46,678 nt of DNA, taken from positions 1 through 46,678 of IMG/VR virus record IMGVR_UViG_3300036857_000169. One strand, written 5' to 3'. Positions 2,290 to 24,754 of the stretch are shown piece after piece. The notes beneath the pieces are model-generated. The model worked only from the letters and a program-made list of their open reading frames with translations, was not told where the DNA came from and searched no databases. This stretch comes from a virus. Every line of letters begins with the position of its first letter. Position 1 is the stretch's first letter. A program made the translations under genes and the position numbers.

Positions 2290-3048
2290 ATGACGTCTCG
2301 CGTGCAGCCGGCGATCGCTACCCCCGACGACGGCGAGCCCTTCCACTTGGACTTGCCCGGCACCGAGGAGATGGCGCTCCGCGCACGCGCTCGGCTCCGC
2401 GCCGTCCAGAAGTCCTCCAGCGACCGCTACCGCACCGATCCCTACGCCTTCCTCGTCGAGTGCGTCTGGACGCTCGACCAGGCATCCCAGCAAGTGCGCC
2501 GCTTCCCCGACTTCGACGACGGCGCCTGCGCCTGCGGGCACGGCTGCCGCAACTTCATCCAGCACCTCTGCGTCACCTGGCTCCGCGAGAAGCGGCTCCT
2601 CGTTCCCAAGTCACGTAGAGTGTTAGTAAGCTGGACAATGGTCGGCCTCCACTGCTGGCTCGCGCGCTTCTTCCCCGGCTCCACGATCGCCTTCGTCTCC
2701 CGCAAGCAGGGACTCAACGACAGCGAGGGCGCCGCCGAGTTAGTCAGACGAATTAAATTCATAGAAGAACACCTCCCCGTCGAGATAGAGCCACTCCCCT
2801 TCCAGTACAACTTCGCGCGCCTCAAGTACCCGACGATCGGCAGCGAGATTATCGGCGTCGCGCAGGGCGCCGATCAGTTGCGTCAATACACCCTCACAGC
2901 GATCTTCGCCGACGAGATGGCTTACTGGGAGTTGGCGCATGACACCTATTCAGCGAGCATTCCAACGCTCGAAGGTGGTGGCCGCTTCACGGGCGTCTCG
3001 TCGGCCAACCCTGGCTTCTTCAAGCAAGCGGTCTTCGACTGCCTGTAA
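2290..3048 (+). CDS. terL: terminase large subunit, ATPase half (split gene), 252 aa
   Basis: The motor ATPase domain that drives DNA into the prohead. Visible motifs are a Walker A-like VPKSRRVLVSW (residues 105-115), Walker B TAIFADE (203-209, hydrophobic run plus Asp-Glu) and the coupling motif SSANPG (237-242). A Cys/His cluster (CACGHGC, 80-86, and Cys94) could bind metal. The protein stops ten residues after the coupling motif, where an ordinary TerL continues into the nuclease domain. That domain is encoded separately at 8680-9552. Together the parts total 542 residues, a normal TerL length. The start has only a weak ribosome-binding site. Confidence 0.85.
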   Translation: MTSRVQPAIATPDDGEPFHLDLPGTEEMALRARARLRAVQKSSSDRYRTDPYAFLVECVWTLDQASQQVRRFPDFDDGACACGHGCRNFIQHLCVTWLREKRLLVPKSRRVLVSWTMVGLHCWLARFFPGSTIAFVSRKQGLNDSEGAAELVRRIKFIEEHLPVEIEPLPFQYNFARLKYPTIGSEIIGVAQGADQLRQYTLTAIFADEMAYWELAHDTYSASIPTLEGGGRFTGVSSANPGFFKQAVFDCL

Positions 3049-3081
3049 GTTAGCTAACAATGCTAACTCACAATGACCGTT

Positions 3082-3113
3082 CTCATGCAGGACCTCCCGT
3101 CACGCTGCATGAG
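3082..3113 (+). promoter_or_regulatory. 9-bp perfect stem-loop after the terminase ATPase stop
   Basis: CTCATGCAG (3082-3090) and CTGCATGAG (3105-3113) form a perfect 9-bp stem with a 14-nt loop. A smaller hairpin (GTTAGC with GCTAAC) lies directly behind the ATPase stop codon. Both sit upstream of the larger branched structure at 3117-3225. Confidence 0.5.
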
Positions 3114-3116
3114 CGC

Positions 3117-3225
3117 GAGGAGGGGGGCTCCGTCGCACATGCCGGGGATGGTCCCCGGCCAGCCTGTCCCACCGATCGTCCGTGTCGCCAGCCAGGCTGC
3201 GGGGGTGCGAGGAGCCCCTCTTTTC
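3117..3225 (+). ncRNA. predicted three-way-junction RNA between split terminase and cargo
   Basis: A long closing helix joins 3117-3138 to 3205-3225. Its core pairs are GGGGCTCC with GGAGCCCC and TCGCAC with GTGCGA, separated by one bulged G (3132) and extended outward by mixed Watson-Crick and G-U pairs. It encloses a perfect 8-bp hairpin with a 3-nt loop (GCCGGGGA 3141-3148 with TCCCCGGC 3152-3159) and a second stem (CAGCCTG 3160-3166 with CAGGCTG 3193-3199). No credible ORF occupies the gap. It could be a processed or regulatory RNA, an attenuator (TCTTTTC follows the last arm) or a motor RNA. Function is unknown; the pairing itself is visible. Confidence 0.5.
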
Positions 3226-3239
3226 AATGAGGTAACCAA

Positions 3240-3875
3240 ATGGACTACTTAAACTACTTACTCTCTATGCTCCCTGGGGGCTCGGCGCTCGGCGGCGGCG
3301 GCCTCGGCCTCGGCGGCGGGCTCTCGGGCGCCATGCTCCCCGGCCTCGCCCGCTTCGGCGCCGGCCTCGGCACGGGCGTCCTCTCGGGGCTCTCCGGGCT
3401 CTCCGGCGGCGCTCCCGTGATGGGCGGTGGCGGTCTCTACGGCGGTGGAGGCGCTCCCGCCCCGTCGGGCGGCATGGGTATGGGCATGGGCGCCGCACCC
3501 TCTGCCTACCCGGGTGGCTCGACGCTGCTGATGCCCGGCGGCACGCCCGAGACGGCGCAACCTGCCACACCCGGCACCTACCCCGGCGGCAGCCAGATGC
3601 TCTACCCTGGCGGCACCCCCGCGACCTCGGTCCCGGTCGGTGGCCAGCCCGCCGCGCCCTCCCTCGGCCAAGCCGGCGCGACGACGTTCCCGACCGCCTC
3701 CGGGGGTGACAGTGGCACTGCCCGGCGCGGCGCCTCCCAGATGGACGCGATGCGGAGCGCCATGATGCAGTGGCTCGCGGCGCACGCGGGCATCGGCGAA
3801 GACGCCGTCCAGGCGACCGTCCGCGCCCTCCAGCAAGCCGCTGCCCAGCGCGCCGCCCTCTTCGCCGGCCAGTGA
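3240..3875 (+). CDS. glycine-rich protein, 211 aa
   Basis: No family recognised. Residues 1-85 are almost entirely Gly, Leu, Ala and Met (runs such as GGGGLGLGGGLSG), followed by repeated YPGGS/MPGGTP blocks (about 88-130). A short amphipathic helical end, about 165-211, is rich in Ala and Gln. The ATG follows GAGGT at good spacing. The first ten codons use rare A/T-ending codons, unlike the rest. The low-complexity make-up suggests a structural or membrane-interacting protein. It is the first gene of the cargo between the terminase halves. Confidence 0.65.
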   Translation: MDYLNYLLSMLPGGSALGGGGLGLGGGLSGAMLPGLARFGAGLGTGVLSGLSGLSGGAPVMGGGGLYGGGGAPAPSGGMGMGMGAAPSAYPGGSTLLMPGGTPETAQPATPGTYPGGSQMLYPGGTPATSVPVGGQPAAPSLGQAGATTFPTASGGDSGTARRGASQMDAMRSAMMQWLAAHAGIGEDAVQATVRALQQAAAQRAALFAGQ

Positions 3876-4151
3876 CACGACACATGGGGAGCCGGTCGAC
3901 TGGCGTCGCGGTGAGGTGATGTCGTGCCGGCATGCCACGCGGAGGTGGGGGCGCGTCGGCCAGTGACCGCGCACGTCATCCTCTCGGCCCTCTGGCAGCG
4001 CGCCGTCATCCTGACGCTCGCGCTCGCCCGCTTGGACGCCATCCACGCGCGCGGCGTGGCCCCCCTCGACCATCACGATAAAGCATGCTACCCTTCCGGC
4101 GCAAGAACGCTACCATCGCCATTTATTAGCAACCACGAAAGGAGCACACGT
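3876..4151 (+). other. gap with open but unassigned frame
   Basis: No convincing independent gene. One frame is open from GTG 3924 into the next gene with G/C-ending codons as far as about 4075, so it may be a remnant or an upstream-extended form of the next protein. The last 70 bases are AT-richer and carry the ribosome-binding site of the gene at 4152. Confidence 0.35.
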
Positions 4152-4424
4152 ATGGCGGCCACGATCACGGCAACCGGCACCTGGACGCCGCTCAACTTGG
4201 ACTTCACGCGCATGAGCAAAACTTCGGCGAACGTCCCGCACGCCGACAAGATGCAGCTCGACGCGCTCAAGTCTGCCGACCTGGCCGAACTCGTCCAGTT
4301 CGTCCAGGCGATGGCCGACGGCTACGGCATCGGCTTCAACCCGGCCAAAGCCCTCTTCTTCGCCTGCGTCCAAGCCTTCATGAATCGCGAGACGCCCGCC
4401 GTCTCCCGCTCGTTCGCAGCCTAG
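4152..4424 (+). CDS. hypothetical protein, paralogue A (MAATITATG start), 90 aa
   Basis: AAAGGAG lies at ideal distance before the ATG. The first nine residues, MAATITATG, are nearly identical to the start of the protein at 5155-5439. Both continue with TWT, a variable middle and a helical end of similar spacing (LVQFVQAMADGYG here, VQQFVALVAAAQGYS there). They look like diverged duplicates. Function unknown; small virion decoration or lysis accessory roles are possible but not shown. Confidence 0.65.
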   Translation: MAATITATGTWTPLNLDFTRMSKTSANVPHADKMQLDALKSADLAELVQFVQAMADGYGIGFNPAKALFFACVQAFMNRETPAVSRSFAA

Positions 4425-4460
4425 CCTTCCCCACGGCTAGCTCTCTAGGGAGGTAGTGTC

Positions 4461-4709
4461 ATGGAGAGGAACATCGACCAACTCCCTCTCGCCCAGCGCA
4501 TCCCGGCCCTCGTCGAGGCCGTCACCGCCGCCCGCCAGCGCAAGGAAGCCGGCGCGTCGGAGGAGGCCGACTGGATGGATCAGCTCGCGAAGGCCGAAGC
4601 CGAGGTGACCGGCAAGGCGGCCGGCTCCGAAGGCGTCGAACTCTCTGGCTTGATCCCCGACAACCCCTACGCGCCGAAGCCGTCCGACGACCAGGACGCG
4701 GCGACATGA
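4461..4709 (+). CDS. hypothetical charged helical protein, 82 aa
   Basis: AGGGAGG precedes the ATG. Residues 1-60 are predicted helix with alternating charged and Ala residues (coiled-coil-like), followed by a Pro/Asp-rich tail. The TGA at 4707-4709 overlaps an ATG (ATGATG), linking it to a downstream frame. No family recognised. Confidence 0.6.
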   Translation: MERNIDQLPLAQRIPALVEAVTAARQRKEAGASEEADWMDQLAKAEAEVTGKAAGSEGVELSGLIPDNPYAPKPSDDQDAAT

Positions 4710-4817
4710 TGGACGACGATGGCCGCCAACTGTCCCTCCGACTTCCAGACCGTTTCCTTCCCCCCACGCATCAGGGTCCTGGTCATCAGGGTCCTCTGCT
4801 AGCGCTGGAGCATCCCG

Positions 4818-5048
4818 ATGGCAGTCTCGAACGCGCCAGCCAACTTCCAGGGCGACCTGATCGACCCACTGACGGGGAACCAGGTCTACCGGGTGCCGGC
4901 GTGGTGGGAGTCTCGCGTCTCCCCGTCCCCGGCGACGCCACGCCCCTCGACCGCTCCCGCGCCAGCCTCGCCCTCGGACCCGACGCCGCCGTCGATGATC
5001 GGTGGCTGGGACCCGGTCTATGGATTCCTCATGCGCCCGGTGACCTAG
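4818..5048 (+). CDS. hypothetical protein, 76 aa, with possible displaced acidic tail
   Basis: The frame starts 8 nt after GGAG and is strongly G/C-ending. It encodes an aromatic N-terminal part (NFQGDLIDPLTGNQVYRV), a Pro/Ser/Thr linker and an aromatic end (GGWDPVYGFLM). Just behind its TAG lies one copy of the 11-mer GCGTGTAAACG (5048-5058). Directly after that, a very acidic stretch with the same codon bias runs to TAA 5149 in another frame, which is also open from 4706. The acidic stretch may be the former C-terminus, displaced by a small insertion, or a separate overlapping product. Confidence 0.5.
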   Translation: MAVSNAPANFQGDLIDPLTGNQVYRVPAWWESRVSPSPATPRPSTAPAPASPSDPTPPSMIGGWDPVYGFLMRPVT

Positions 5049-5154
5049 CGTGTAAACGACCCGAGCCCGAGGACGACGATCCGCTCGCCGATCCCGAGCC
5101 CGACCCGCCCGAGGACGACATCGACGACGACTACGAAAAGAAGGAGTAACGACG

Positions 5155-5439
5155 ATGGCCGCAGTCATCACCGCGACAGGCACCTGGACGACCCCCGACG
5201 TGAAAGCGCAGGACGTCGGCGGCTCTGGCGTCACCTTCCGCAACGCGGGGGGCGACGACTTCGACAGCCGCGCCTCGATCCAGCGCGGCAAGAACCTCTT
5301 CGACGAAGTCCAGCAGTTCGTTGCCCTGGTCGCCGCCGCGCAGGGCTACTCTGGCACCGCCGCGATCGATCAAATCCTCGCCTGCCTGCACGACATGCGC
5401 CGCCAGCCGAACATGGGCGAGCGCGTCTTCTCTCAGTAA
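5155..5439 (+). CDS. hypothetical protein, paralogue B (MAAVITATG start), 94 aa
   Basis: Paralogue of the product of 4152-4424, sharing MAA-x-ITATGTWT at the start and a helical C-terminal half of matching length. AAGGAG precedes the ATG. The middle (DVGGSGVTFRNAGGDDF) has no counterpart in paralogue A. Unknown role. Confidence 0.65.
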   Translation: MAAVITATGTWTTPDVKAQDVGGSGVTFRNAGGDDFDSRASIQRGKNLFDEVQQFVALVAAAQGYSGTAAIDQILACLHDMRRQPNMGERVFSQ

Positions 5440-5479
5440 ACCTGCTAGCTAGTTAATTATCACTCAGAAGGAGGGTCCC

Positions 5480-5635
5480 ATGGCGATCGTCTCGGTCATC
5501 CTCCTGCTCCTCGCCTTCCTCTGCTTCGTCCTCGCCGCCGCGCAGGCGCCGATCCCGCGCCTGAATCTCGTCGCGGCCGGGCTCGCACTCTGGGTCCTGA
5601 CCGCTCTCCTGCCGCACCTCCACGCCGCGCCCTGA
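5480..5635 (+). CDS. small two-helix membrane protein, holin candidate, 51 aa
   Basis: GAAGGAGGG lies 5-8 nt before the ATG. Two hydrophobic segments (about residues 2-21 and 29-45) are joined by a short Pro/Arg loop (APIPRLN), a hairpin topology seen in small holins and other phage inner-membrane proteins. It is followed at once by the beta-barrel gene, with the endolysin 2 kb downstream. A holin role is inference from size, topology and neighbourhood only. Confidence 0.6.
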   Translation: MAIVSVILLLLAFLCFVLAAAQAPIPRLNLVAAGLALWVLTALLPHLHAAP

Positions 5636-5636
5636 C

Positions 5637-6875
5637 GTGCGCGCCCTATGCCTATTCATCTGCATATCAATAGGTATAGTTGGTAGCGCTGCGATGGTCT
5701 CCGCCCGCACGATCGTCGGCACGCTGGGCGACGCGCAGGAGCGCGTTGGGCTCCGCCCCGCGCGCGCCTTCACCACCTTCGCTGGTCACGTCGCCACCCT
5801 GCTGACCGCGCCGTCGCTCCGCTCGACGACCAGCGCCGCCCTCGCTGGCACCGCTGCCATCGACTCCAGCGAGTCGACCCTCGGCCCGATCTTCTTGGAC
5901 CACGCCGAGACCCTCGGCCGGGGCGTCACCAACCTGAACGTCATCTCGCAACGGAGCTTCGCCCAAGGCTCGCTCCTGGGTGCCCCGTTCAGCGGCCTCG
6001 GCCTCACCGCGCCCCCCGTCGTCACCCGGCGCACCCCGACGGCCCATCCCGCCAGTCCCGCCCTGCTGGGTGTCCGCCTGCATTACACCCTCGACCTCCA
6101 CGTCTGGGCAGTCGCCCTCGCCGTCAGCTACGGCATCACGGACGCCCTGGACGTCTCGCTCGTCCTGCCCGTCGTCGCCGACCGCCTCGATCTCGCGACG
6201 ACCGCGCGCGTCGTCGCCGCCACCGGCCCGACCGGCGGTGCGTTTACCCGCGTTGCCGATGCGCCCACCCTCGGCGGCACCCTTGAGCCCGTCCAGTCGA
6301 CCGGCATCGGCGATCTCGTCCTGCGCGGCAAGGTGCGCCTCTCCGTCCCCGCGCCCTGGCACGCCGCCGCCACGCTCGAACTCCAGTTTCCGACTGGCGA
6401 TCTGATGCAGCTTCATGGCACGGGCGACACCTGGATCACCCCTGGCCTCGACGTCGCCTATCCCTTCGCCGTCGGGAGCCGCCGCGCCGAACTCGACGCC
6501 AGCGCCGGGCTCAACTTCGACATCCCGCACTCCCTTCGTAGCCAAGCCCTCTACGGCCTCTCCGCGTCGATGGTGCTCTGGCCGAAGCGGCTCGGCGCGA
6601 TCGTCGAATTTCTCGGCCAGTCCCAGTTCGACTCGGCCTTCCGTCCGAACTCGACCGACGTCCTCGTCCTCACCCCAGGCGGCATCCAGCCCGATCCGCT
6701 CCTCGGCGTCGGCTGGACCGCGCGCCTCGATCAGTGGGATTTTTCCTTTGGGCTCCGCGCCGTCCTTCTCCCCGGCATCCTGGTGTTCGCCAACGGCGCC
6801 GTCGCGCTCAACCCCGCTGCCGGTGTCCGCCCCGCTGGCGTCGTCCCGACGATCGGGATCGGGGCGTCCTTCTGA
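5637..6875 (+). CDS. exported outer-membrane beta-barrel protein, 412 aa
   Basis: A GTG start gives a classical signal peptide: Arg, a hydrophobic core (LCLFICISIGIVG) and a cleavage site near AAMVSA. The mature part has alternating hydrophobic strands and short turns, including VALAVSYGITDALDVSLVLP, RGKVRLSV, AATLELQFPTGD and LGVGWTARLDQWDFSFGLRA. It ends in Phe (GIGASF), the usual outer-membrane-barrel end signal. The pattern resembles bacterial transporters of the phenol MetA-pathway type. In a phage it could change the infected cell's surface, for example by blocking superinfection. The signal-peptide codons are A/T-rich, unlike the rest. The GTG has no clear ribosome-binding site, so the exact start is less certain. 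Confidence 0.75.
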   Translation: MRALCLFICISIGIVGSAAMVSARTIVGTLGDAQERVGLRPARAFTTFAGHVATLLTAPSLRSTTSAALAGTAAIDSSESTLGPIFLDHAETLGRGVTNLNVISQRSFAQGSLLGAPFSGLGLTAPPVVTRRTPTAHPASPALLGVRLHYTLDLHVWAVALAVSYGITDALDVSLVLPVVADRLDLATTARVVAATGPTGGAFTRVADAPTLGGTLEPVQSTGIGDLVLRGKVRLSVPAPWHAAATLELQFPTGDLMQLHGTGDTWITPGLDVAYPFAVGSRRAELDASAGLNFDIPHSLRSQALYGLSASMVLWPKRLGAIVEFLGQSQFDSAFRPNSTDVLVLTPGGIQPDPLLGVGWTARLDQWDFSFGLRAVLLPGILVFANGAVALNPAAGVRPAGVVPTIGIGASF

Positions 6876-6937
6876 TGACGCTGCTCGCGCTGGCACTCGC
6901 GAACCCCCCTGCGAGCGCTGCCACTTCGGCAGAGTGA
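6875..6937 (+). CDS. 20-aa peptide with duplicated signal-like sequence
   Basis: The ATG overlaps the stop of the barrel gene (TGATG). The peptide MTLLALALANPPASAATSAE looks like an isolated signal sequence. Nineteen bases of it (6884-6902) recur exactly at 6956-6974 in the signal peptide of the next gene, so it is probably a duplication remnant, or a leader peptide coupling the two genes. Confidence 0.35.
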   Translation: MTLLALALANPPASAATSAE

Positions 6938-6943
6938 GCGGTG

Positions 6944-7720
6944 ATGATGCTCGTCCTCGCGCTGGCACTCGCGAGCCCGACCGCGCCGCACACGATCGTC
7001 GCGACCAAAGCGGCGCTCTGCCGCGAACGCTGCGGCCCCATCACCGTGAGCCTCTGCAACAACCTTCCCAGCAAGCAAGCAAAGCAGTGCGCCCAGGGCA
7101 TCCGCTCCGCCTGCCGGCGCTCGACTCCCGAGGCGGTCTGTCCCGATGTCCTGCCGTCGCTCGTTGGTCCGACTGGTCCGACGGGTCCGCCGGGCGCCGT
7201 GGGTCCAGTGGGTCCGTCGGGAGTGCCGGGCGCTCCGGGCGGCCCTGGCCCCGCAGGCGCCGCTGGACCTGCTGGCGCTCCTGGCGATCGTGGCGCTCCT
7301 GGTCCTCCTGGCGACGCTGGTGCTCCTGGCTCCCTCGGTCCCGCTGGACCCACCGGCCCCACCGGCCTCGCTGGAGCGACCGGCCTCGCTGGACCGACTG
7401 GAGTGACGGGCGCGACCGGACCTACAGGACCGCCAGGCGCCACCGTCCAGATCGTCTCGGTCACGCAGGACTTCGGCCGTGTCCAAAATGGCGCCCTGAT
7501 CCAGGTCGTCGTCACCTGCCCGCCCGGCATGGCGGTCGTCGGCGGCGGTGCCGTCACCGACATCACGCCCCCCAACGACACCGACACGAAGCGCCTCCAC
7601 CAACTCTTCTCTGGCCCGGTCGGCACGACCGAGTGGGTGACGGCGTCGACCGCCGTCGCCACGCTCTCCAATGGCTCGAACCTGCGCTACGTCGCGAGCG
7701 CCACCTGCGTCGGGGAATAG
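6944..7720 (+). CDS. secreted collagen-like protein, 258 aa
   Basis: Domains in order: a short signal peptide ([15 protein letters not shown]), a Cys-rich N-terminal region (five Cys, about residues 25-65), roughly 30 Gly-X-Y triplets (about 75-167, with many GPTGPTG and GAPG units) and a beta-rich C-terminal domain containing [11 protein letters not shown]. Collagen repeats are common in phage fibres, but the signal peptide argues that this protein is exported by the infected cell. The C-terminal domain resembles heads that follow bacterial collagen-like stalks. The ATG at 6944 is preferred; GTG 6941 and ATG 6947 are alternatives. It stops 1 nt before the endolysin start. Confidence 0.75.
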
Positions 7721-7721
7721 C

Positions 7722-8282
7722 ATGATTATCCGAAAATACTTCTTCGACAATATCAAGTATTACCTGTTCAAGTCCTTCACCCAGCAGCAGGTCGACGGCC
7801 TGAACCGCTACTTGGACTACTTCGACGACGACAACCCGCCGATCCCCGACAAGTGGCACCTGGACGACCGTATGTTCTCGTATATCTTGGCAACTGTCTA
7901 CCACGAGACGGCCGCCACGATGACCCCGGTCACGGAGTACGGGTCAGCGAGCTACTTGAAGGGCAAACCCTACTACCCCTACTACGGCCGGGGCGACGTC
8001 CAACTCACCTGGAAGGACAACTACGCCACCCAGGACGTGAAGCTGGGTCTCTCCGGGAAACTCGTATCGGACCCCGACCTGGCGCTCGATCCCACGATCA
8101 GCCTCCAGGTCTGCGTCTTCGGCATGCTCGATGGCGACTTTACAGGTAAGAAGCTAGCTGACTTCTTCACCGACACCCTGACCGACTGGTACAACGCCCG
8201 CACGATCGTCAACGGCCACGACCGGGCTGCCGACGTCGCCACCTACGCCGAACTGTTCTCGAACGCCATCACCCGAGACTAG
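7722..8282 (+). CDS. GH19-family endolysin (chitinase-type glycosidase), 186 aa
   Basis: Likely cleaves the peptidoglycan glycan chain at lysis. The GH19 signature is clear: YHET (Glu62, probable general acid), a second Glu in TEYG (Glu72), then YYGRGDVQLTWKDNY (87-101) and a helical C-terminal part. The length of 186 residues fits the catalytic domain alone. No signal peptide or transmembrane segment is seen, so release should need a holin; candidates are at 5480 and 8576. The first dozen codons are A/T-rich. Confidence 0.85.
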   Translation: MIIRKYFFDNIKYYLFKSFTQQQVDGLNRYLDYFDDDNPPIPDKWHLDDRMFSYILATVYHETAATMTPVTEYGSASYLKGKPYYPYYGRGDVQLTWKDNYATQDVKLGLSGKLVSDPDLALDPTISLQVCVFGMLDGDFTGKKLADFFTDTLTDWYNARTIVNGHDRAADVATYAELFSNAITRD

Positions 8283-8575: not shown

Positions 8576-8680
8576 ATGGCTACTGAAACTCAACTCCTCC
8601 ACGCCTACGGACTGGGCGCACTCGCTGGAGCGATCGTCATCGTCATGGCGTGGATCGCCTGGACGACCTGGCCACGCTGA
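8576..8680 (+). CDS. single-span membrane peptide, 34 aa
   Basis: Contains one transmembrane helix (GALAGAIVIVMAWIAWTTW) with a short N-terminal tail and a terminal Arg, as in pinholin-like or other small phage membrane peptides. Its first six residues, MATETQ, are the same as those of the downstream terminase nuclease protein, and the nucleotides share GAAACTCA. Its TGA overlaps the ATG of that gene (TGATG), so the two are translationally coupled. Confidence 0.6.
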   Translation: MATETQLLHAYGLGALAGAIVIVMAWIAWTTWPR

Positions 8681-9552
8681 TGGCCACCGAAACTCAGCAA
8701 ACCGAGCGTGTCCTCGATCGCCCGCCCGACTTCGCCGCCTCGCCGCGCCCGGGCATCACGGAGTGGAAGAACGCTCGCAACGCCTTCTTCGTCTGCCGCC
8801 TCCACTACACCGCCGATCCGCAGAAGCGCTCGGGCGAGTGGAAGCAGAAGACCAGCGAGGGACTCTCGCTGCGCGCCTGGCAGCGCGAGTACGAAATCAG
8901 TTGGACGTCCCCCGAGGGCGAGCCGGTCGTCCCCGAGTTCGACGCCAATCGCCACGTCCGCGAGACCATCATCACCCGCGACGCGAAGCTGCTGCGCTTC
9001 TGGGACTTCGGCGCCGTCAGCCCCGTCGTCCTCTTCTGTCAGCTCTCCCAATATGGACAACTCTTGGTACATAGAGAGTTGTGCCCGTTTAACACCCCGC
9101 TCGATCAATTGCTACCTGTTGTCAATGCGATCGCTCTCGACCTGGTCACGCGCACCGACTACTTCGACGCGGGCGACCCCGAGGTGGACAGTGTCGGGTC
9201 TCTCGGGAGCATCGCCGAACTGCTGCAACGTGCGAACATCCACATGCACACCAACCGCCCCGGGAAGGAAGTCAGCTATGCGACGCTGCGTGAGCGCTTT
9301 CTTAAATCTGTGTATATCCCTCGTCTCGGTCATGATCCTGCTGTCCTCGTCTCGCCGCGCTGTCCGAACCTGATCGAGGCGCTCTCGGGCGGCTTCCATC
9401 TCTCCGCCCTCCCGCCCTATCGCCCGGTGAAGGCGCATCCGATGAAGGACCTGGTCGACGCGCTCCGCTACGGCTTCGACAATCTCGATGCGGCCGGCGC
9501 CGACCGCGACATCCTGCTGAAGAAACTCGCGTCGGGCGACCGGGCCTGGTGA
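8680..9552 (+). CDS. terL: terminase large subunit, nuclease half (split gene), 290 aa
   Basis: RNase H-like headful or cos nuclease domain. Residues 36-75 (FFVCRLHYTADP, then WQREYEISW) are the part of TerL that normally follows the ATPase coupling motif. Acidic catalytic residues are visible in RFWDFG (Asp109), YFDAGD (Asp163, Asp166) and HPMKDLVDALRY (Asp257, Asp260). No ATPase motifs are present; those are encoded at 2290-3048. The first 30 residues are not TerL-like and may be a new N-terminus acquired at the split. The gene overlaps the upstream membrane peptide by one base. Confidence 0.85.
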   Translation: MATETQQTERVLDRPPDFAASPRPGITEWKNARNAFFVCRLHYTADPQKRSGEWKQKTSEGLSLRAWQREYEISWTSPEGEPVVPEFDANRHVRETIITRDAKLLRFWDFGAVSPVVLFCQLSQYGQLLVHRELCPFNTPLDQLLPVVNAIALDLVTRTDYFDAGDPEVDSVGSLGSIAELLQRANIHMHTNRPGKEVSYATLRERFLKSVYIPRLGHDPAVLVSPRCPNLIEALSGGFHLSALPPYRPVKAHPMKDLVDALRYGFDNLDAAGADRDILLKKLASGDRAW

Positions 9553-9828: not shown

Positions 9829-10032
9829 ATGCCAACCGATCGCACCGCGAACCTCGGACTCACCTACACGGGTGATGCCGCCGCCAACGCGAACCTCGAC
9901 AAGCTGGACGCCGCCATCGGCGCGGTCTCGGCGCCGCCTGCCGACAGCGGCCCGTCGCAAGCCGACTTCGACGCGCTGGTCGCCCGCGTGGACGCGCTCG
10001 ACGCCCGCGTCACCGCGCTCGAAGGCGCCTAG
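9829..10032 (+). CDS. short fibre-anchor-like protein with coiled coil, 67 aa
   Basis: Residues 8-30 (LGLTYTGDAAANANLDKLD) carry the motif shared by the next fibre proteins: a beta strand, then Asp, Asn and a Leu-Asp-x-Ala helix. The C-terminal 25 residues form a heptad-like coiled coil (LVARVDALDARVTALEG). ATG 9829 is preferred over GTG 9823 because AAGGAG is 8 nt upstream. It may be a minimal fibre base or trimeriser. Confidence 0.6.
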   Translation: MPTDRTANLGLTYTGDAAANANLDKLDAAIGAVSAPPADSGPSQADFDALVARVDALDARVTALEGA

Positions 10033-10035
10033 GCG

Positions 10036-10611
10036 ATGGCCGACCCGACGATCGACCAGCGCACCCCGAACGTCCGCTTGCGCTTCGAGAGCGATAGCAC
10101 ACGCAACTACAACTGGTCGAAGCTGGACGACGCGATCGGCAAACTCGGCGGCGGCTCCGTCGCACCCCCCGCGATCACCGCCGCCGTCGTCGCCGAAGGC
10201 CACACGATCATCCAGACGCTCTCCCTCCCGCTCAACACTCCCGTCACGCTCGCCCAGATCACTGCCCTCGCCGGCACGCCGAAGAAAGGTCCCTCCTTCA
10301 TCACCGGCTACATCCCGATCACCTGCAAGAACCTGACTGCCACGATCCAGCCGATCGTCTTCAACATGGAAATCGACGTCTACGGGCCGTCCGAGTCGAC
10401 CGCCATCGTCACCGACTACGGCTTCGACATCCCACCATCCGTCGAGAGCCCCTTCTTGGTCCCGGTCTCGACCATCATCATGACCCCCGACGACGAGGGA
10501 GGCGCCCCGTGCACCCTCATCGTCACCAAGGGACTCGCCACCGACGCCACCGTCACCGCGCGCGTCACGTCCCTCGGCTACCTCCAGATGATCGAGTTCG
10601 CCGCGCCCTGA
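10036..10611 (+). CDS. tail/fibre protein with shared N-terminal anchor motif, 191 aa
   Basis: The N-terminus (LRFESDSTRNYNWSKLDDAI) is the shared anchor motif. The rest (about 45-191) is beta-rich without low complexity and could be a receptor-binding or collar domain. It follows the 67-aa anchor-like gene by 3 nt. The family is not otherwise recognised. Confidence 0.65.
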   Translation: MADPTIDQRTPNVRLRFESDSTRNYNWSKLDDAIGKLGGGSVAPPAITAAVVAEGHTIIQTLSLPLNTPVTLAQITALAGTPKKGPSFITGYIPITCKNLTATIQPIVFNMEIDVYGPSESTAIVTDYGFDIPPSVESPFLVPVSTIIMTPDDEGGAPCTLIVTKGLATDATVTARVTSLGYLQMIEFAAP

Positions 10612-10612
10612 C

Positions 10613-10661
10613 CTTATAAACAATGCTTATACTTATAAACATAGGTAATAGGTAATAGGTG
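10613..10661 (+). promoter_or_regulatory. AT-rich promoter-like island before the long fibre gene
   Basis: CTTATAAACA occurs twice exactly (10613-10622 and 10632-10641, 19 bp apart), followed by three tandem AATAGGT-like units (about 10642-10661) that run into the start codon. TATACT and TATAAA are -10-like. The island stands out in a GC-rich genome and resembles those at 14263 and 24755. Confidence 0.45.
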
Positions 10662-13232
10662 ATGGCTGGCGGCGAGACGAACGGCCAGACGCCCTATCTC
10701 CATCTCGGCCTCGGCACCGACGCGGTCGAGAACCGAAACCTCGCCATTCTGGATGGACGCTTCTACGACCTCGCGCGTGGTCTGATCGCGAACATCCCGG
10801 CCGGGGGCGACCTGACGGGCTTCTACCCCGACCCATCGATCCGTGACGGCGCGGTCACCGATGCGAAGATCGCGTCCGTCTCCTGGTCGAAGATCACGGG
10901 CGCCCCATCGACCGCTGACTCCTGGGCGGACAGCGGCACGGTCCTCTCGCCGACGAAGGGGCTCACCTATCCGGTCTCGCATGGCACGGTCACGCTGAAC
11001 GATCCCTCCCCGGGCGTCATCTTCGCGCGCTCCGCCGGCCTGCCGATCGTCGGCACGCAGCTCGGCTCGCAGGTCTACCGGGGCCAGCCGGCGCAGAACG
11101 GCGCCACGGTCTCGGTCACCGCCGCCGAAGCCTGGGTCGCGAACGGCGCGTCGGGGACCACCTATCGCCTCGCCACCGTTCCGCTCGGCTCCGACACGAC
11201 CGTAGACCGCCTGATCGTCGCCGCCTCGGGGACGACCTCCTTCCCGAACTCCAGCGTCCGCATCGGAGCCAGCGCAGACGCGCGCGAGCGCCTCGATGTC
11301 GCGGGCGCCGTCATCATCGCCGCGTCGGTCTCGGGCGCCCCGGTCGATGGCACGCTCCAGTGGAACGGCACACACGTGCTCGCTCGGGTCGCGGGCGCCT
11401 GGACGCAGCTCGACAACCAGGCGGCGGCGGGCGGTGGCCTCTGGGTTGCCGATCCGACCACGTCACCGACCGCGCTCACGCTCGGGGGCGCCTACGACAC
11501 GATCCGCCTCCAGACGCCCACCTCGCAAATCCTCTTCGGCAGCGCGGGCGCGACGGCGGTCCCCTCGGTCAGCGCCGACGTAACACGCCTCTTTCTTGCT
11601 GGCACGCAAGTCGTCTTCACCGACACGGCGAGCGCGACGATGCTGACCCTGATGAACAACCGCCTCGTCACGACTGGCGCCGTCGTGCTGGCCGACGACA
11701 CGAAGGCGACCCCGCCCGATGGCAGTCTGCGTTTCAACGCGGGTCACGTCCAGGCGCGGGTGGCGGGCGCGTGGGTCCAGTTGGACAGCCCGGCGGGCAA
11801 CTGGGCCGTCGCGGGTGGGACGATCACCCCCAGTGACCCGACGAAGGTGGTCGCGCTCGCCCCCCTCAGCAGCCCGCTCCAGTGGTCGAACGGGCGCACG
11901 GTCCTGCACCGCCTCCTCTCGCACGGGACGGTCGACACGGCATTCTGGACAGCGAACTTTGCCCTCAACCCGACCTCGACGGGCTTCACGAAGGACGTCA
12001 ACGCGCAAGCCTCGTGGATCGCGCTCCTCGATGCGAGTGGTGACAGCTTCGGCGTCCAGCGCGCTGCGCCGGGGAGCGTGAATCCGACGACGCTCCTCGC
12101 GATCGACAGCGTGGGCCACCTCCGCGTGACCGTCGACCCGGCGAACGCGCTCGATCTCGCGACGAAGCAGTACGTTGATGGGAAGGTGCCGACGTCGCTG
12201 CCGCCGTCGGGCGCGGCGTCAGGTGACTTGCAAGGTAGCTATCCTGGGCCGACCATCAAGCCCTCGGCGCTGCCGTGGACACCGTCGGGCGCGACGCTCA
12301 CGCCGACCGACGCGACGAAGACCGTCACCGTCCCCGGCAGTCCGACGGATGGCAACGCGCTGCTGTGGGGCACGCGCACGGTGAAGGGCCGACTCTCGCA
12401 ATCCACCACGGCCGACATGGCGGTCGTCTCGGTGAACCGCACGCAACAGGATACACACGACGACACGTCGAAACCCGGCTGGTGGCTGCGGCTCGGCGCG
12501 GACATCGACGCCGCGCAGATCATTCGCTCGCCTGCGGGCACGGGAACGGTCACTGGGACCGCGCAGGTCCAGGTGGACGGCACCGGCCTCGTCACCGTGC
12601 CCGGCTCCATCGTCGCCCCCGACCTCTCGGCACTGCTCCTCGGCACCTTCACCTCGAAGGCGCGGCTGATGGCGCCGAACTTCGACGGCTTTTACTTGAC
12701 CTACAACTCGCGCAACAACATCTCGGGCTGGCTCCGCGACGACGCGACGAAGCCCGGCTGGCGCCTCGTGCTCCGCTCCGGGGCCGACAACTTCGCGATC
12801 GAGCGTGCCGATACATCCGACGTGCAGGCGACGCTCTGCACCATTGGCGGCGCCGGCAACCTGACGATCAGCGGGGCGACGGCAACGAAAGCATCTGGCA
12901 CGACCTGGGCCAACCCCTCCGACCCGCGCCTGAAACGCGACGTGACCCCCTACTCGACCGGCCTCGCCGCGATCCTCGCCCTCGATCCGATCGCGTTCTT
13001 CTACAACGGCAAGGGCGGCACGACCGACGACGGGCGACAGTGCTACGGCTACGACGCGAGCGCGGTCGAGACCGTGTTCCCCGAGTGTGTCGGCACCCGG
13101 CGCGGCACACTCGACGAGCGCGACCCTGACGAGACGGACATCCTGACGCTCGACACCTCCAACTTCACCCTCGCCCTCATCAACGCAGTCAAGGAACTCT
13201 CGACCAGAGTCGCTGCCCTGGAGGCACGATGA
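10662..13232 (+). CDS. long tail fibre with C-terminal S74 chaperone, 856 aa
   Basis: Receptor-binding fibre. The start carries the shared anchor motif (LGLGTDAVENRNLAILD). The middle holds repeated beta units (recurring VQARVAGAWVQLD / VLARVAGAWTQLD and DATKPGW patterns) typical of trimeric fibres. The C-terminus (about 751-856) is a peptidase S74 intramolecular chaperone: SDPRLKRD with the Ser cleavage site and Lys, then LAAILALDPIAFFYNG and a final coiled coil (LINAVKELSTRVAALEAR). By analogy the chaperone cuts itself off after trimer folding. It overlaps the next gene as ATGA. Confidence 0.85.
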   Translation: MAGGETNGQTPYLHLGLGTDAVENRNLAILDGRFYDLARGLIANIPAGGDLTGFYPDPSIRDGAVTDAKIASVSWSKITGAPSTADSWADSGTVLSPTKGLTYPVSHGTVTLNDPSPGVIFARSAGLPIVGTQLGSQVYRGQPAQNGATVSVTAAEAWVANGASGTTYRLATVPLGSDTTVDRLIVAASGTTSFPNSSVRIGASADARERLDVAGAVIIAASVSGAPVDGTLQWNGTHVLARVAGAWTQLDNQAAAGGGLWVADPTTSPTALTLGGAYDTIRLQTPTSQILFGSAGATAVPSVSADVTRLFLAGTQVVFTDTASATMLTLMNNRLVTTGAVVLADDTKATPPDGSLRFNAGHVQARVAGAWVQLDSPAGNWAVAGGTITPSDPTKVVALAPLSSPLQWSNGRTVLHRLLSHGTVDTAFWTANFALNPTSTGFTKDVNAQASWIALLDASGDSFGVQRAAPGSVNPTTLLAIDSVGHLRVTVDPANALDLATKQYVDGKVPTSLPPSGAASGDLQGSYPGPTIKPSALPWTPSGATLTPTDATKTVTVPGSPTDGNALLWGTRTVKGRLSQSTTADMAVVSVNRTQQDTHDDTSKPGWWLRLGADIDAAQIIRSPAGTGTVTGTAQVQVDGTGLVTVPGSIVAPDLSALLLGTFTSKARLMAPNFDGFYLTYNSRNNISGWLRDDATKPGWRLVLRSGADNFAIERADTSDVQATLCTIGGAGNLTISGATATKASGTTWANPSDPRLKRDVTPYSTGLAAILALDPIAFFYNGKGGTTDDGRQCYGYDASAVETVFPECVGTRRGTLDERDPDETDILTLDTSNFTLALINAVKELSTRVAALEAR

Positions 13233-14293: not shown

Positions 14294-16597
14294 ATGTCTG
14301 ACCAGATCATCCTCGCCGCGAACCTCGCCAAGAAGGCCAGCGTCCGGAACTGGTTCAAGAAGGAACTCGCCCCCCTGGTGACGCAGGTCCGCAGCGAGAA
14401 GAACCAGGTGATCCGCCCGCAGTGGCTCCGCTACTACAACCAGTGGGCGCTGCGGGGCACCGAGCAAGCCTACCACGGCCGTCAACGTATGTACCTCCCT
14501 ATCTCCCACCGTATAGTGGAGAACTGGGTACAGAAATTGCGCGCCGATATCTTCCCCGACTCGGGCAAGTGGTTCAAGAACACCCCCGACGCGACCGCGA
14601 ATCAGGAGCGTGGCGTCGTCGTGCACGAACTCCTGATGAAACTCCTCCGCACCCAGATCAAGGCGACCGCCATCTTCCCCGGCTTCCTCCGCAACCTCTG
14701 CATCTTCGGCACCTCGCCGGTCGAGATGGGCTGGAAGCTGGACGAGCGCCAGGTCCCGACGCTCCAGGCGAAGGCGGGTCCCGACGGCTCCTCGACCGTC
14801 GTCGAGGAGGCCGTCCGCAAGGTCGTCCGCTACATCGGCCCGACCATGCGCGTGATCGATCCCTTCCTCTTCTACGTCTACCCCTACACTGCCCAGTTCA
14901 CCTACGACTGTGAACTGCTCTTTGAAGATATGTTGATAAACTGGGACACGCTCGAACGGATGGCCGACACGCCGATCGACCCCGACCGGCCCGACCTCGG
15001 CAACCAGATCGAGAACTGGCAGGGCGTGAAGGACCTCCGCAAGGGGGGCGGCGGCAGTGCGGCGACCGGCGACAAGTTCCAGGCGGAGCAGCTCCGCCTG
15101 CAGGCGCGCGGCCTCCAGTCGCGCTCGGAGAAGCTGCGCGAGGACCCGAAGCGTCCGCTGGACTTCACGAAGATCGCCTGGTACGGCGCGGTCGACGCCA
15201 GTGGCGCGTCGTCCGACGACAACGACGCCCTCCCCCCGCCCGACGTCCCGCAGTGGTGGCAACTCTGGGTGTGCGGCGACGACACGCTCGTCCAGTGCCG
15301 GCAAAACCCCTGGTGGAAGCAGCAACCGCCCTATCTCGCCGCCAAGTTCTGCGAGATGCAGTCCGAGTTCTGGGGCTACGGCGTCATGTTCCTCCTCGAC
15401 CATTTCCAATATTTCATGAATGATACCATGAATCAGACTGGCGATGGTCTCGTCTTCTCCCTCAACCCCATCGTCGCCATGGACGCCAACGCCGTCCAGT
15501 TCCCCGACTCGATCCGCATGGCCCCGGCCGCGCGCTGGCTGGTGCGCGACCCGCGCAACACCGTCAACTTCATCGAACCGCCGAAGGAGTCCGCGCAGGC
15601 TGGCATCATGGTCATCAACTTTCTCGTCGCCATGATGAACGACGTGTCGAACGTCGCGCCCTACGGCGCCGCCGGGCTCCAGGCGGGTGGCCGCGCTCGG
15701 GGTCGCGCGGTGCAGACGGCGACCGGGATGTCGATCCTGTCAGGAGAAGCACTCTTACAAGTAAGAGATGTAGTTGAGAATGTGGAGCAGGGCGTCCTGA
15801 ACGAGATGCTCGACTGGATGTTCACGCTGCTCCAGCAGTGCCTCGACCGCGACCTGGCGCTGCGCGTGGACGGCGCCGAGGGCGCGACCGTGCTGGAGAC
15901 GCAGGTCACCCGTGACACGCTGGTCGGCGGCTACACCTTCGACTGGCTCGGCTCGACCTTCTCATTCAATCAGAATGTTCGCACCCAGCAAATGTTAAAT
16001 TTTATCCAGATTCTAGCCAGAATCCCGCCCGAGTTCCTCGCCCAGGACAACGCGCGCGTCGACTGGAAGTACCTGCTCCGGGAAATCTGGTCGACCGGCT
16101 TCGGCGACCGCGAGGCCGAACTCATCATCAAGGACATCACTCCGACCCGCGCCGTCGACCCGATGATCGAGAACCAACTCTTCGAGGTCGGCCGAGGCGA
16201 CGAGGTGACCGTCTCGCCGATCGACGACGACATGCAGCACGCCCAGGTGCACAACGCCTGGCTCCAGTCCGCCGAGGGGCAGCAACTCCCCGACCAGGTG
16301 AAGCAGCAATTGATCCAGCACATCCAACGCCACGCCGCCTCCTACGTGATGAAGCAGCAAGCCGCCCAGCAGCAAGCTGCCCAGGCCGCCATGGCGCAGC
16401 TGCAAGGCGGCGGCGGACAGGCTCCTGGTCCTGGTGGCCCTCAAAGTGCCGCCCCCGGTGCTCCCCCGGGACCGCCAGGACCAGGGGGTCCACTCACGCC
16501 GTCGCGGAACGTGATGCCAGAGCCCCCGGGCCGTCCACCGCAGACCGCCAACGCGGGCGACATCGAGCGTCGCCTCCCACGCACCAACATGCAGTGA
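14294..16597 (+). CDS. portal protein, 767 aa
   Basis: The dodecameric channel at the head-tail vertex. Long podovirus-type portal: an N-terminal helical region with YYNQWALRG and YLPISHRIVENWVQKLRADIFP (about 70-95), a central alpha/beta body (FGTSPVEMGW, VIDPFLFYVYP), a long helical stem region, and a Gln-rich helix (about 685-715) followed by a Pro/Gly tail. Size and order (portal, two small genes, scaffold, coat) support the call. Several short patches of rare A/T-ending codons lie inside it, at about 14490, 14920, 15750 and 15965. Confidence 0.85.
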   Translation: MSDQIILAANLAKKASVRNWFKKELAPLVTQVRSEKNQVIRPQWLRYYNQWALRGTEQAYHGRQRMYLPISHRIVENWVQKLRADIFPDSGKWFKNTPDATANQERGVVVHELLMKLLRTQIKATAIFPGFLRNLCIFGTSPVEMGWKLDERQVPTLQAKAGPDGSSTVVEEAVRKVVRYIGPTMRVIDPFLFYVYPYTAQFTYDCELLFEDMLINWDTLERMADTPIDPDRPDLGNQIENWQGVKDLRKGGGGSAATGDKFQAEQLRLQARGLQSRSEKLREDPKRPLDFTKIAWYGAVDASGASSDDNDALPPPDVPQWWQLWVCGDDTLVQCRQNPWWKQQPPYLAAKFCEMQSEFWGYGVMFLLDHFQYFMNDTMNQTGDGLVFSLNPIVAMDANAVQFPDSIRMAPAARWLVRDPRNTVNFIEPPKESAQAGIMVINFLVAMMNDVSNVAPYGAAGLQAGGRARGRAVQTATGMSILSGEALLQVRDVVENVEQGVLNEMLDWMFTLLQQCLDRDLALRVDGAEGATVLETQVTRDTLVGGYTFDWLGSTFSFNQNVRTQQMLNFIQILARIPPEFLAQDNARVDWKYLLREIWSTGFGDREAELIIKDITPTRAVDPMIENQLFEVGRGDEVTVSPIDDDMQHAQVHNAWLQSAEGQQLPDQVKQQLIQHIQRHAASYVMKQQAAQQQAAQAAMAQLQGGGGQAPGPGGPQSAAPGAPPGPPGPGGPLTPSRNVMPEPPGRPPQTANAGDIERRLPRTNMQ

Positions 16598-23435: not shown

Positions 23436-24164
23436 ATGGGCACCGTCCCCCGTCCAATCAAGGCACGCGGCAACGCCAACTTCGCCGACGAGGTCGCCGC
23501 CGGCAAGCCCGACATTCTCGACGTCGAGGTGGACCGAGACTTCAACGCGCTCTACACCTTAGTAAACGGTAATCTAGACACTGCCAACATCAAGGCGTCG
23601 GGCGCCAACATCCAGTACGGCCAGTTGAACCTGACCGGGAAGATTCAGCCGGGTGACCTGGCGCCGGGCTTCGTCCTGCCGGCAAACGCGGTGATTGGCA
23701 CCTCGATTCAGGATCACACGATTGCCGGCGTGAAGCTGGTCCCCGGCGCGGCGACCGGCGCCCAGGTCTTGCGCGGCGACGACTCGGCCTCCGTCCTCGC
23801 CGCCGGGGAGACGCTCCTCGTCGAACTCACCTGGAACACGGTCGGCGGCTACTGGGTGGCGACCGCCTCGGTGGTCGGCTTCATCACTGCCGTCCCGCCG
23901 ACGACGACCACGCTGACGCTGCGGCTCGGCGGCACGGCTGGCCTGACGGACGGCACCCCCGTCCACACGGCGCAGCTCCAGTCTGCCGGTGCCCCAGGCA
24001 GCGGCTCGCTGCCCTTCGGCGTTGCCCTCCTCACCCAGGGCAACTTCCTCTTGGGCGACATGACCAATCCGAAGCGGCTCTCGGTGACCGCGACCACGAC
24101 CGCGAGCCCGGCGGGGGCGATCGGCATCACCTCGCGCCGGCTCCTCCTCCATGAGGCGACCTGA
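23436..24164 (+). CDS. tail-associated protein, 242 aa
   Basis: An N-terminal helical segment with DFNALYTLVNGNLDTANI is followed by beta-helix-like turns and a C-terminal beta-rich domain (about 120-242). The N-terminal pattern is common at the bases of phage fibre or knob proteins. GGAGG lies 8 nt upstream. It follows the hub gene, so a tail needle, knob or fibre adaptor is plausible. Confidence 0.6.
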   Translation: MGTVPRPIKARGNANFADEVAAGKPDILDVEVDRDFNALYTLVNGNLDTANIKASGANIQYGQLNLTGKIQPGDLAPGFVLPANAVIGTSIQDHTIAGVKLVPGAATGAQVLRGDDSASVLAAGETLLVELTWNTVGGYWVATASVVGFITAVPPTTTTLTLRLGGTAGLTDGTPVHTAQLQSAGAPGSGSLPFGVALLTQGNFLLGDMTNPKRLSVTATTTASPAGAIGITSRRLLLHEAT

Positions 24165-24754
24165 TGACCTTTGCGATCCGGCTCGCTGATCTCTCCGACC
24201 TCCCGACGCTGCGCGCACTCTGGCGGGACCACGTCACCACGATGAAGCCCGTCTACCCCCGCAATGTCCTCGGCTCGATCGACGACTTCACGCGCGCCAT
24301 CGCCGCCGAGTTCGCCCGCGTGCCGCAGCAGGGCTTCGTGCTGCTCGCCCACCACGGCGACCAGGTCCTCGGCTTCCTCCTCTACGAAATCCAAGAGCGG
24401 CTCCTGGGCGAGCCGAAGCGCTTCGCCTTCGTCCACCACCTCTACGTCGTCCCCGAGGCACGCGGCCAGGGCATCGGCGTGGCACTCTCCGAACTCTACC
24501 TCGAACACGCGCTCGCGCAGGGCATCGACACGGTCGAGGCCGGCTACGCCCCCGGGACGACCTGGGTCGCCGCGCAGCCCTACGAGCCGTTCTTCACGCG
24601 CGGCTACGCCCCGATCGGGAAGGTCCTCGCGCACTTCGCCCGGCTGCGCGCCCGCCGCACCCCCAGCCCGCAGGCGAACGGCCACGACGTGCCACCCCCG
24701 GTCGACGGCCTCGACGACGACACCCGCGCGGAGATAGTGAAACTCCCTAATTAG
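24164..24754 (+). CDS. GNAT-family N-acetyltransferase, 196 aa
   Basis: Transfers acetyl from acetyl-CoA to an unknown amine. The fold is visible: N-terminal strand and helices, HHLYVVPEARGQGIGVALSE (92-110) with the acetyl-CoA-binding RGQGIG (100-105), then YEPFFTRGYAPIG near 145-158. It is coupled by TGATG to the preceding tail gene, so it is made late with virion proteins. It could modify a virion or host protein; the substrate cannot be read from sequence. The last codons are A/T-rich. Confidence 0.8.
   Translation: MTFAIRLADLSDLPTLRALWRDHVTTMKPVYPRNVLGSIDDFTRAIAAEFARVPQQGFVLLAHHGDQVLGFLLYEIQERLLGEPKRFAFVHHLYVVPEARGQGIGVALSELYLEHALAQGIDTVEAGYAPGTTWVAAQPYEPFFTRGYAPIGKVLAHFARLRARRTPSPQANGHDVPPPVDGLDDDTRAEIVKLPN

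Follow-up and report, generated by a model that had tools for sequence, protein, structure and literature searches.

A viral DNA of 46,678 nucleotides (IMG/VR record IMGVR_UViG_3300036857_000169; the whole stretch is referred to here as the window) contains an open reading frame for which a first-pass annotation had proposed an outer-membrane β-barrel lying inside the split terminase of an apparently lytic phage. The questions raised by this locus are whether the open reading frame is a gene, whether its product is an exported barrel, and what a phage would gain from it. The open reading frame was found where the annotation had placed it, on the plus strand and encoding 412 aa (Table 1).

A second metagenome contig (L002) was 99.98% identical to the window across positions 2354-6702. 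Nine further phage contigs carried full-length homologues with 62-68% amino acid identity to the window copy in the mature part, and L015 and L028 carried partial ones. Pairwise identities among the ten full-length phage copies ranged from 62 to 95% in the mature part, and dN was well below dS, with dN/dS mostly at 0.1-0.4. Because of the near-identical second contig and the phage homologues with dN well below dS, the open reading frame is, on this comparative evidence, a real gene, and purifying selection acting on it appears well supported. The phage relatives (L003; L007, L008; L012-L015; L028-L031) were retrieved from the viral collection only through peptide-motif searches. The first-pass statement that phage barrels are rare was too strong, since many phage proteins in BFVD are annotated as outer-membrane barrels of other kinds; yet for this particular family neither 50,697 phage records nor PHROGs yielded a match. 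A sequence search of plasmids and a viral scan with the bacterial-type motif also gave no match, and no close relatives were found among 84,980 genomes.

Table 1. Features of the barrel locus in the window (strand and evidence for each)
Feature	Position	Strand	Basis or remarks
TerL ATPase half	2290..3048	+	PHROG 5989, E=0.0026; 45% identical to opposite-strand L014 gene
Small hydrophobic protein, 51 aa, two hydrophobic stretches, holin candidate	5480..5635	+	hydropathy
Outer-membrane β-barrel gene (predicted)	5637..6875	+	GTG start, 412 aa; PF13557, AF2 model, fold matches, homologues
Predicted signal peptide, cleavage after Ala23 (VSA/RTIVG)	5637..5705	+	ten-copy leader comparison
N-terminal mature segment, ~64 aa, candidate plug, low-confidence helices	5706..5897	+	AF2
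Conserved core STGIGDxxxRxK ... FPTGD ... HGTG	6297..6431	+	within barrel gene
20-codon ORF MTLLALALANPPASAATSAE	6874..6937	+	ATG overlaps barrel stop; repeat CTCGCGCTGGCACTCGCGA
Collagen-like protein, export-type leader, 93-residue Gly-X-Y run, C-terminal domain	6941..7720	+	PF01391; position
GH19-like endolysin	7722..8282	+	PF00182, E=2.3e-5; PHROG 181 endolysin, E=4.8e-23
TerL nuclease half	8650..9552	+	assigned by homology and position

The three features on which the first-pass annotation had based the barrel assignment, a signal peptide, alternating strands and a terminal Phe, were all borne out. In the ten phage copies the leaders diverged, the residue at position -1 was always A or G, and the mature start directly after it was invariant (R[TMS]x-x-G[VT][LV]GDAQE), which is thus the pattern of signal-peptidase cleavage. 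Hydrophobic alternation in the window barrel exceeded that of composition-preserving shuffles (z 3.4, with 1 of 300 as high), and values of z 3.4-4.5 were obtained for the phage copies. The terminal Phe was present in the window barrel, in 10 of the 11 phage copies (Leu in L007) and in most bacterial homologues. An AF2 model, suggested by the annotation as a check, was calculated from an alignment of 14 relatives (11 phage rows and three bacterial homologues) and gave about 12 long strands reaching the C-terminal Phe at a pLDDT of 61.1 and a pTM of 0.57. DSSP assigned 13 strands of 9 or more residues, one of them probably split at the GIGD kink. Mature residues 1-64 were modelled with pLDDT under 50 and helices at 8-14, 20-34, and 41-58. 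A model from two sequences alone (pLDDT 27.7) was set aside.

Foldseek ranked FapF first (E 1.2e-9). With VIA-align, FapF (Z 18.4, rmsd 5.6, 229 residues) was tied with the COG4313 channel 4rl8 (Z 18.1 across 233 residues), followed by KdgM (Z 17.1) and autotransporter barrels (Z about 15). At the sequence level, no solved structure in the PDB, FapF included, matched the barrel at E up to 10. At the moderate confidence of this model the predicted barrel fold class is safe and the finer ranking of the fold matches is not; together with the sequence features, it makes the assignment of the gene product as an exported outer-membrane β-barrel well supported. Since 4rl8 is a small-molecule channel, its tie with FapF means that the fold does not decide between export and uptake.

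The suggested kinship to phenol MetA-pathway-type channels held up, through the 4rl8 fold and through family profiles. The window barrel scored just under the PF13557 (Phenol_MetA_deg) cut-off of 22 (20.1 bits, E=7e-4), and the cut-off was passed by L003 (29.1 bits) and L007 (29.3 bits); the profile gave no match to L014, L016, and L018. The remote homology search that the annotation had recommended identified full-length chromosomal homologues in Acidobacteriota (L016, L017, L018; hhalign probability 98.9, E 1.1e-17, 322 columns), and further homologues occurred in 16 of 297 sampled genomes of this phylum, to which the host-side sampling was confined. They are about 20-26% identical to the phage barrel and have the motifs and the terminal Phe in common with it; GIGD, PTG, and GTG are conserved among the phage barrels and, nearly without exception, among the bacterial homologues. 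A tree placed the phage copies in one clade (100/100) on a long stem, so the sampled hosts are not a recent source of them. The record of L016 (CALQBJ020000287.1) is titled Bifidobacterium breve, a title that is probably wrong, as the record groups with the sampled Acidobacteriota and its phylum yields a genome draw identical to that of L018. Asp226 and Pro252-Thr253-Gly254 (spacing 26) are invariant in the phage copies and correspond to Asp92 and Pro119-Gly121 of Pput2725 (spacing 27, PMC4493636), the equivalence being one of pattern, not of superposition.

What the first-pass annotation missed is the coupled collagen-like partner at 6941-7720 and the presence of the pair in integrase-bearing phages. 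The partner matched PF01391 with E=2.1e-15 and 56.6 bits (cut-off 27.2), and the cut-off was also passed in L003, L008, L014, and L031. In all phage contigs with sufficient flank (10/10, the window plus nine), a collagen-like gene lay directly downstream of the barrel gene, and in nine of these ten stop and start overlapped or adjoined, typically as TGATG. The ten contigs are not independent: with the kin groups L012-L014, L030/L031, and L007/L008 they represent about five or six genome backgrounds. The pair is nevertheless common to otherwise unrelated phages, as L003, L007, L008, and L029 match few window genes besides the barrel. The window junction differs by a short duplicated leader between the two genes. 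CTCGCGCTGGCACTCGCGA occurs twice, in the 20-codon open reading frame and in the leader of the collagen-like gene, for which 6941, 6944, and 6947 are start candidates; the small open reading frame thus looks like a partial duplicate of the collagen-like leader, and by its sequence a small tandem duplication at 6874-6937 appears to have displaced the coupled start of the collagen gene.

Across the phages the Gly-X-Y run of the partner comprises 51-93 residues. Its leader has a conserved hydrophobic stretch ending in LAS[PA]xAP and lacks a positive N-terminus. The C-terminal domain resembles that of secreted bacterial collagen-like proteins (24.3 and 21.3 bits; the top score among 2000 shuffled decoys was 13.9 bits), and one of these proteins carries a clear signal sequence. 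A Cys-rich segment of the partner presumably resembles proteins of soil phyla other than Acidobacteriota. No collagen-like gene was present downstream of the bacterial barrel homologues in the three loci examined, and no collagen-like run near them in 18 loci, some of which have flanks of only ~200 nt and three of which repeat the same proteins. In the literature searched we found no published account of a barrel-collagen pair. Phage outer-membrane proteins as such are already known; the conserved partner adds to the interest of this one.

The barrel gene lies between the two TerL halves, as annotated. The product assigned as the nuclease half is 42-44% identical to gene products of L012-L014, L030, and L031. 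L003 has a complete TerL, whose C-terminal part is 28% identical to this product. In L014 the halves are encoded at 2297-3070 on the minus and at 9930-10796 on the plus strand and must therefore be two polypeptides. An intron as cause of the split was rejected on the same grounds, and an Rfam scan gave no match reaching the gathering score. Reports of TerL split into separate ATPase and nuclease genes were not found in the literature searched. The barrel gene is located inside a split terminase in the window and in L014, and elsewhere in L003, L007, L008, and L029; this setting is not needed for the barrel. Directly after the ATPase half of the window, a Gly/Pro-rich low-complexity protein is encoded (3240-3875), and directly upstream of the barrel a candidate holin (hydropathy 3.11 over 19 residues, no Pfam or PHROG family match).

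The characterization of the phage as apparently lytic fits the window, which encodes its own DNA polymerase and primase, an exonuclease and a major head protein and in which no integrase was found. L007, L008, and L014 do carry integrases; the pair thus occurs in phages with and without an integrase and is not special to a lytic phage. In L008 a tyrosine integrase (15174-16379) lies beside a tRNA-Lys (16482-16552), a likely attachment site from which the host might be identified. Among the structural genes of the window is an acetyltransferase-like gene (24164-24754; PHROG 1249, E 4.1e-13). The C-terminal part of the window tail fibre (10659-13232) is 61% identical to that of L007 (L056 1307-2425), and judged by this identity it appears to be a second exchanged module between the window phage and the otherwise unrelated L007.

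Of the genes compared between the window and L014, the barrel had the lowest dN (0.32); the capsid stood at 0.57, and the TerL nuclease, portal, and tail genes at 0.66-0.78. These sequences do not favor recent transfer alone as an explanation of why the barrels are so alike, since dS was similar across genes, though near 1 and thus close to saturation. A constraint above that on capsid and terminase implies that the barrel matters to these phages.

The reading that we prefer, tentatively and at a little below an even chance, is that the two coupled genes form a late-region module altering the outer surface of the host, in which a collagen-like fibre is exported or anchored by the barrel. After Sec export, the first product would fold in the outer membrane into a barrel of about 12 strands of the COG4313/PF13557 type, its fold closest to FapF. 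The collagen-like protein would first reach the periplasm by export and there be threaded through the barrel or retained by it, so that collagen-type trimers would be displayed on the surface of the infected cell. There, late in infection, the coating or fibre may mask receptors or keep cells together. Late expression is suggested by the position of the pair among structural and lysis genes. From the constant coupling of barrel and collagen-like genes we take the two to be a functional pair; a role of the collagen-like protein as cargo or ligand of the barrel, its display at the surface and the benefit to the phage are inferred.

An outer-membrane route or anchor is suggested because FapF exports a fibre and the PTG motif is common to FapF, COG4313 channels, and the phage barrels. 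FapF (5o65, 5o67, 5o68) exports the Pseudomonas amyloid FapC across the outer membrane, and a COG4313 channel has been named its closest PDB relative, with the first PTG motif in common (PMC5557850). Like FapF, the phage barrel has a neighbor gene for a fibre-forming protein (putatively secreted), in addition to the best, tied fold match and the PTG motif; it differs in that no sequence similarity is detectable and in that the partner is collagen-like, not amyloid. A FapF-type N-terminal trimeric coiled coil, a chaperone, and a C39 protease were not found for the phage module, whose N-terminal 64 barrel residues are of low confidence. With COG4313 channels (Pput2725, 4rl8) the phage barrel shares the 12-strand-type barrel, an N-terminal segment before the first strand and a PTG motif preceded at about 26 residues by a conserved Asp, whereas it has a longer N-terminal segment (~64 aa), a coupled collagen-like gene and no catabolic neighbors. 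The chromosomal proteins of Acidobacteriota differ from it in having no collagen-like gene downstream. In pelagimyophages and phage Melnitz the curli pore CsgGF occurs in the absence of recognized fibre subunits, and sibling capture, uptake, or lysis control have been proposed as its role (PMC7029224, PMC9004378). These, too, are lytic phages with an outer-membrane pore of fibre-export type (function putative), but fold and origin are different, and in the present locus a candidate fibre gene adjoins the pore. That the pair amounts to a complete fibre-display system of exporter and collagen cargo, coating or tethering infected cells late and common to otherwise unrelated soil phages, is possible but rather doubtful. 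Against the export reading, the two genes could adjoin only because their timing is shared, and the endolysin gene that is usually next to them would suit a role in lysis as well.

In such a lysis module, barrel and collagen rod would take the place of spanins, helping to rupture or open the outer membrane when infection ends. The pair is located just before the endolysin gene in the window and in L007, L008, L012-L014, L030, and L031, and a small single-span membrane peptide is often encoded nearby. No PF03245 spanin was detected in five phage records, the profile being narrow and spanins diverging fast, and the Gly-X-Y runs have a calculated length of about 15-27 nm, near the depth of the periplasm. 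L003 does not conform, its endolysin gene lying >20 kb away on the other strand, and the collagen-like protein has no visible inner-membrane anchor. We consider this role unlikely; if true, the pair would be a non-spanin factor of outer-membrane lysis, a comparably useful finding.

Also unlikely is the surface remodelling proposed in the first-pass annotation, with the barrel acting by itself to block adsorption or DNA entry of competitors or binding of progeny to debris, as thought for Lom-like and Llp-like proteins. Virus sequence sets contain many phage-encoded outer-membrane proteins, and expression from the late region would fit the protection of released progeny, but this leaves the constant collagen-like partner unexplained. 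Lom/Ail-type proteins resemble the present one as phage-encoded outer-membrane barrels acting on the host surface. Lom, however, is a small 8-strand barrel, and proteins of this type are much smaller and have no collagen-like partner; size and fold of the window barrel differ accordingly, and no Lom-type PHROG or Pfam match to it was found.

A COG4313-like auxiliary channel for uptake of hydrophobic small molecules is improbable. The PF13557 membership of L003 and L007 and the 4rl8 fold match speak for it, as does the lateral opening near the conserved D/T/PTG of COG4313 channels proposed for hydrophobic uptake (PMC4493636). Yet no metabolic gene lies beside the barrel, the constant partner is a fibre rather than an enzyme, and placement in the late region would be of little use for feeding the cell. 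A tail or baseplate part merely rich in β-strands is very improbable: the gene is surrounded by structural genes, and phage tails commonly contain collagen-like proteins, but a tail-fibre or virion role was rejected on the signal-peptide pattern and the full-length homology to bacterial outer-membrane proteins, barrel folds also being the best structural matches.

If export or anchoring of the collagen-like fibre by the barrel is true, these phages would bring along, in two small genes, a route of their own for exporting a surface fibre across the outer membrane. The module would be a simpler counterpart to the puzzle of the phage curli pore, a pore without a known fibre, and would offer a minimal system, of two genes, for presenting collagen-like proteins on Gram-negative cells.
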